This document shows, in pieces, positions 60,833 to 63,711 of a stretch of 64,000 nt of DNA. The DNA comes from Comamonas sp. lk. Lineage in GTDB: Bacteria; Pseudomonadota; Gammaproteobacteria; Burkholderiales; Burkholderiaceae_C. Made by a program: the position numbers and the translations under genes. Under the pieces are notes generated by a model. The model was not told the origin of the DNA and made no database searches. It saw nothing but the letters and a program-made list of their open reading frames with translations. The stretch lies in contig NZ_UOOB01000001.1 of NCBI RefSeq assembly GCF_900564145.1, positions 1,488,753 through 1,552,752 on the forward strand. Reading direction: 5' to 3'. The first letter of the stretch is position 1; every line of letters begins with the position of its first letter.

Positions 60833-63711
<2,879 letters not shown>

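Follow-up and report, generated by a model that had tools for sequence, protein, structure and literature searches.

A lone G at 23S rRNA position 2554 in one Comamonas rrn copy, most probably introduced by assembly or consensus calling in a mis-joined ribosomal repeat

Introduction

The stretch of DNA analysed here (the window) comprises bases 1,488,753-1,552,752 of C1, one of the two contigs in an assembly of 4,899,818 bases, and contains a tandem pair of rRNA operons whose 23S genes differ in the loop of helix 92, the A-loop. The initial annotation of this 64,000-base window had offered two readings of the difference, a sequencing or assembly error or a true ribosome variant, and the question raised by the locus is which of these is the better supported. 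Were the variant real, a purine would occur naturally at a site in contact with C74 of A-site tRNA. The observation itself was confirmed, the variant reading was found to be unsupported, and the difference is most probably an error made during assembly or consensus building, in a ribosomal repeat that was joined incorrectly.

Results

Position of the deviating base

Self-comparison of the window, shifted by 5,676 bases, aligned two copies of a repeat unit spanning 16S, two tRNAs, 23S and 5S, at 52758-58324 (copy 1) and 58434-64000 (copy 2), both on the forward strand, as are all window features given below. The sole mismatch in the 5,567 aligned bases is a G at 63363 in copy 2 against a T at 57687 in copy 1. 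This bears out the initial annotation, which had read TGTTC at 57685-57689 and TGGTC at 63361-63365, and its further claim that the 23S copies match in all other stretches sampled can be extended to the entire unit. The 16S genes at 52973-54505 (RF00177) and 58649-60181 (Rfam scan) are identical, the 5S genes were placed by Rfam scan at 58206-58318 and 63882-63994, and the 23S genes at 55157-58036 and 60833-63712 (RF02541) score 2814.2 and 2810.5 bits, respectively.

Alignment to rrlB of Escherichia coli MG1655 (2,904 nt) placed base 63363 at 23S position 2554 and the loop TGTTC at positions 2552-2556, in agreement with the earlier designation U2554G. The helix 92 hairpins extend over 57681-57693 in copy 1 and 63357-63369 in copy 2, and in the latter the stem is intact and G2553, the pairing partner of C75, is unaltered.

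Tolerance of changes at position 2554

Published work indicates that this position is open to change. U2554 contacts C74 of A-site tRNA, and E. coli with U2554C 23S rRNA as its only 23S grows, its ribosomes being about as active in vitro as wild-type ribosomes at 37 degrees (PMC9976906); the same source cites an earlier finding of lowered activity for U2554C in ribosomes assembled in vitro. In an in vitro scan of A-loop mutants, U2554 is listed among the positions at which the activities of the mutants add up to the wild-type level, and 'C2554', an entry that is not safely interpretable, is printed in the accompanying list of those where one mutant alone attains at least 75% (PMC7049736). No mention of U2554G, T2554G or U2554A was found in the literature searched. 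As changes at 2554 are tolerated in published mutants, a minority operon carrying G would not be biologically impossible, unlikely as we consider it here.

The possibility to be weighed is a true, recent point mutation in one of several rrn operons. A minority of the ribosomes would then present a purine, in place of the usual pyrimidine, to C74 of A-site tRNA; they would retain part of their activity, and the cell would tolerate them because normal ribosomes dilute them. The identity of copy 2 to copy 1 over the whole unit save this base would be expected of such an event, and the growth of E. coli on U2554C alone (PMC9976906) and the wild-type level of summed mutant activity in vitro (PMC7049736) also favour it. 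These points are set against the rarity of the G elsewhere, the state of the sibling copies and the sequence adjoining copy 2, described in the following sections, and on balance this explanation appears improbable.

Occurrence of G2554 in other genomes

Among 53 genomes of the genus, an A-loop pattern with T at 2554 was found in 139 copies from 34 genomes, three of these copies being from the source genome, and the corresponding pattern with A, C or G gave one match, the window's own copy 2. G therefore accounts for 1 of 140 pattern-matching copies and for none of the 136 from the 33 relatives; the 19 genomes that matched neither pattern, each in at least 20 contigs, are uninformative. Of 5,426 E. 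coli genomes, none matched a 33-mer carrying the G, and the same 33-mer carrying T was found at 37,395 places in 5,375 of them; the search demands a perfectly matching 28-base word, and no T copy shares one with the G query. This absence from both the relatives' copies and E. coli argues against a true mutation.

A broader scan of 84,980 species, each represented by a single genome, with exact pattern flanks required and genomes very near the source genome possibly left out, recovered 114 stretches with a base other than T at 2554: 112 with C, one with A and one with G. The sole G (L019) has other unusual bases beside it and is 26 bases away from the end of its contig. G2554 is all but absent, and C2554 is an established natural variant.

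The initial annotation had treated the A-loop as universal, and for position 2554 this does not strictly hold: C is frequent there in Thermoproteota (PMC9976906) and was also recovered in 18 bacterial-type stretches of the species scan. The Thermoproteota A-loops show that the same position in the same loop is not invariant. However, theirs is a pyrimidine-to-pyrimidine change typical of lineages (PMC9976906), and the change described here introduces a purine, in a single copy from a single assembly.

The 18 bacterial-type C2554 stretches, assigned to that type by a simple rule on the bases preceding the pattern, are L015, L020, L021, L026, L043, L051, L056, L065, L067, L071, L073, L082, L084, L097, L101, L112, L113 and L116; PMC9976906 describes U as conserved in bacteria. 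The titles of eight of them give Zipacnadia, WS1 or Armatimonadetes, and the match in L043 spans the full length of 23S. U2554C is possibly lineage-wide in some bacteria.

Ribosomal copies across the assembly

Four 23S matches are present in the assembly, arranged as two tandem pairs, one near 0.72 Mb (A1 and A2) and the other in the window (B1 and B2), such that site 63363 sits in a long repeat with a 5,567-base unit and four assembled copies. Position 2554 is T in A1, A2 and B1 and G in B2 alone. A species-wide G at this position is ruled out within the assembly by the T in three of the four copies. The comparison with other 23S copies of the genome and its relatives, proposed in the initial annotation as a check, thus gave T in three of the four copies of the genome and G in none of the relatives' pattern-matching copies.

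The number of substitutions private to each copy is 14 in A1, nine in A2, none in B1 and one, the G, in B2. All 14 in A1 fall inside 88 bases of 16S (E. coli 1311-1398; L120:3341-3428), and eight of those in A2 fall inside 73 bases of 23S (E. coli 2348-2420; L120:12224-12296), with the ninth in the 23S-5S spacer. Dividing the loss in Rfam score by the number of changes gives similar values, 3.7 bits per change for B2, 3.5 for A2 and 2.8 for A1. At the sites of the clusters, the majority copy carries the E. coli base in 8 of 8 cases for A2 and 13 of 14 for A1, which is weak evidence because these genes agree with E. coli at more than 80% of positions in any case (2351 of 2854 aligned positions in 23S and 1267 of 1523 in 16S). 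The majority string at the A2 sites is present in 28 of 29 relatives' loci, and A2's own string occurs in none of the 29, the one remaining locus differing in another way. Across its full 150 bases, the A1 16S stretch shares no more than 91% identity with any other genus copy matched, with shorter end pieces reaching 97%. We take the A1 changes to lie in 16S helices 42 and 43, with A1 losing two of the seven helix 43 pairs retained in B1, and both losing and gaining one pair in helix 42. Judged from sequence comparison, the A1 and A2 clusters look like errors rather than evolved variants, and the presence of such private clusters in two of the three sibling copies argues against reading the G as a true mutation.

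Foreign DNA was considered as a source of the G, whether from a contaminating organism or from a second strain, with its rRNA reads drawn into the repeat. The clusters in two sibling copies, absent from the genus copies compared, would fit recruited foreign reads. However, the A1 segment has no near match in E. coli genomes, its full length does not exceed the 91% identity to other matched genus copies noted above (97% for the shorter end pieces), and it breaks pairs in what we take to be helix 43 and exchanges one in helix 42; moreover, only one other G2554 was found in the species scan. Foreign DNA is accordingly a very improbable source of the G. E. coli in particular was rejected as the origin of the odd A1 16S segment on the same lack of a near match in its genomes.

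A join directly after the window

Copy 2 of the repeat unit stops at the window end, and the next base (C1:1552753; L121:12754) is a lone N, 638 bases from the changed base at 63363. It is the sole non-ACGT base in 23 stretches covering 453,502 of the 4,899,818 bases, some of which had been picked at rrn loci and contig ends. The N falls at unit position 5567, the exact point at which A1 and A2 diverge into their own flanks, and the 137 bases ahead of it (63864-64000), which include the 5S gene at 63882-63994, are identical to the 137 bases behind it, such that the 5S gene is present twice, once on either side of the N. At the matching locus a single 5S was found in all ten relatives scanned (chosen out of 47 with a match), as against two in the assembly, and the distance from the A-loop to the downstream region is 795 bases in the assembly as against 652-671 in the eight relatives measured. 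A truly doubled 5S at this locus was rejected given the single 5S in 10 of 10 relatives and the position of the N between exact duplicates. The N would instead represent the unmerged overlap of a repeat contig and a unique contig, of which the exact 137-base repeat is a sign. That this N and the duplicated 5S adjoin copy 2 itself is a further point against a true mutation, and the join that would explain the oddity sits one base outside the window.

Ribosomal sequence is also found at the start of C1 (L156) and at the end of C2 (L158), and because both contigs terminate in this way a further rrn locus has probably been left unassembled. By eye, the end of C1 and the start of C2 contain parts of a putative insertion-sequence transposase. 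Past the second 5S, the unique flank of copy 2 holds a coding region for a putative pseudouridine synthase, likewise judged by eye. In two genus relatives (L209 and L211), the matching rrn locus is followed by runs of four and five tRNA genes of equal score, encoded on the opposite strand.

Discussion

Given the join with its duplicated 5S, the clusters in the sibling copies, the probably missing rrn locus and how rarely G2554 occurs in other genomes, we attribute the G at 63363 to an erroneous consensus call in a ribosomal repeat that the assembly resolves poorly, and not to a ribosome variant, with a probability of roughly 0.88. Of the two readings in the initial annotation, error is therefore favoured, and the true variant did not gain support. 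It is doubtful that one rrn operon truly encodes a G2554 23S rRNA, giving a small natural ribosome population with a purine facing C74, and only one other, itself questionable, occurrence was found in the genomes searched.

A possible course of events is that the N marks contig ends that overlapped and were left unmerged, that the further rrn locus was left unassembled and its reads may have entered the assembled copies, that copy 2 was assembled by mixing reads from several operons or by gap-filling with thin support, and that a miscalled base would then have survived in its consensus. The setting resembles the unresolved rDNA repeats treated in the riboSeed study (PMC6009695), in which the rrn region is long, short reads fail to resolve it, copies are collapsed and rDNA substitutions vary between assemblies; it differs from those cases in having a specific single-N join with an exact 137-base repeat across it. 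Three points count against the error reading: the N lies 638 bases away from the changed base, differences between rrn copies are common in real genomes (PMC6009695), and ribosomes can tolerate an altered base 2554 (PMC9976906). In addition, the B2 change stands alone and those of A1 and A2 are clustered, which speaks against a shared cause.

A plausible route to the miscall would be a systematic Illumina error. T>G after a G is described as the characteristic error of this kind (PMC3295828), and a GGC triplet and an inverted repeat are reported to provoke miscalls, with short contexts predicting errors poorly (PMC3622629). Site 63363 is surrounded by a GGC triplet and an inverted repeat. The likeness to the first source (PMC3295828) lies in the T>G direction and the preceding G; however, the context here is TGT (after GGC) rather than GGT, and the route presupposes that Illumina reads were used for this genome.

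As an artefact, the G serves as a warning that the rRNA copies of this assembly should not serve as a basis for statements on heterogeneity or copy number, or for 16S typing. Separately from the G, the cluster of changes in the 16S gene of A1 could mislead typing of the strain.
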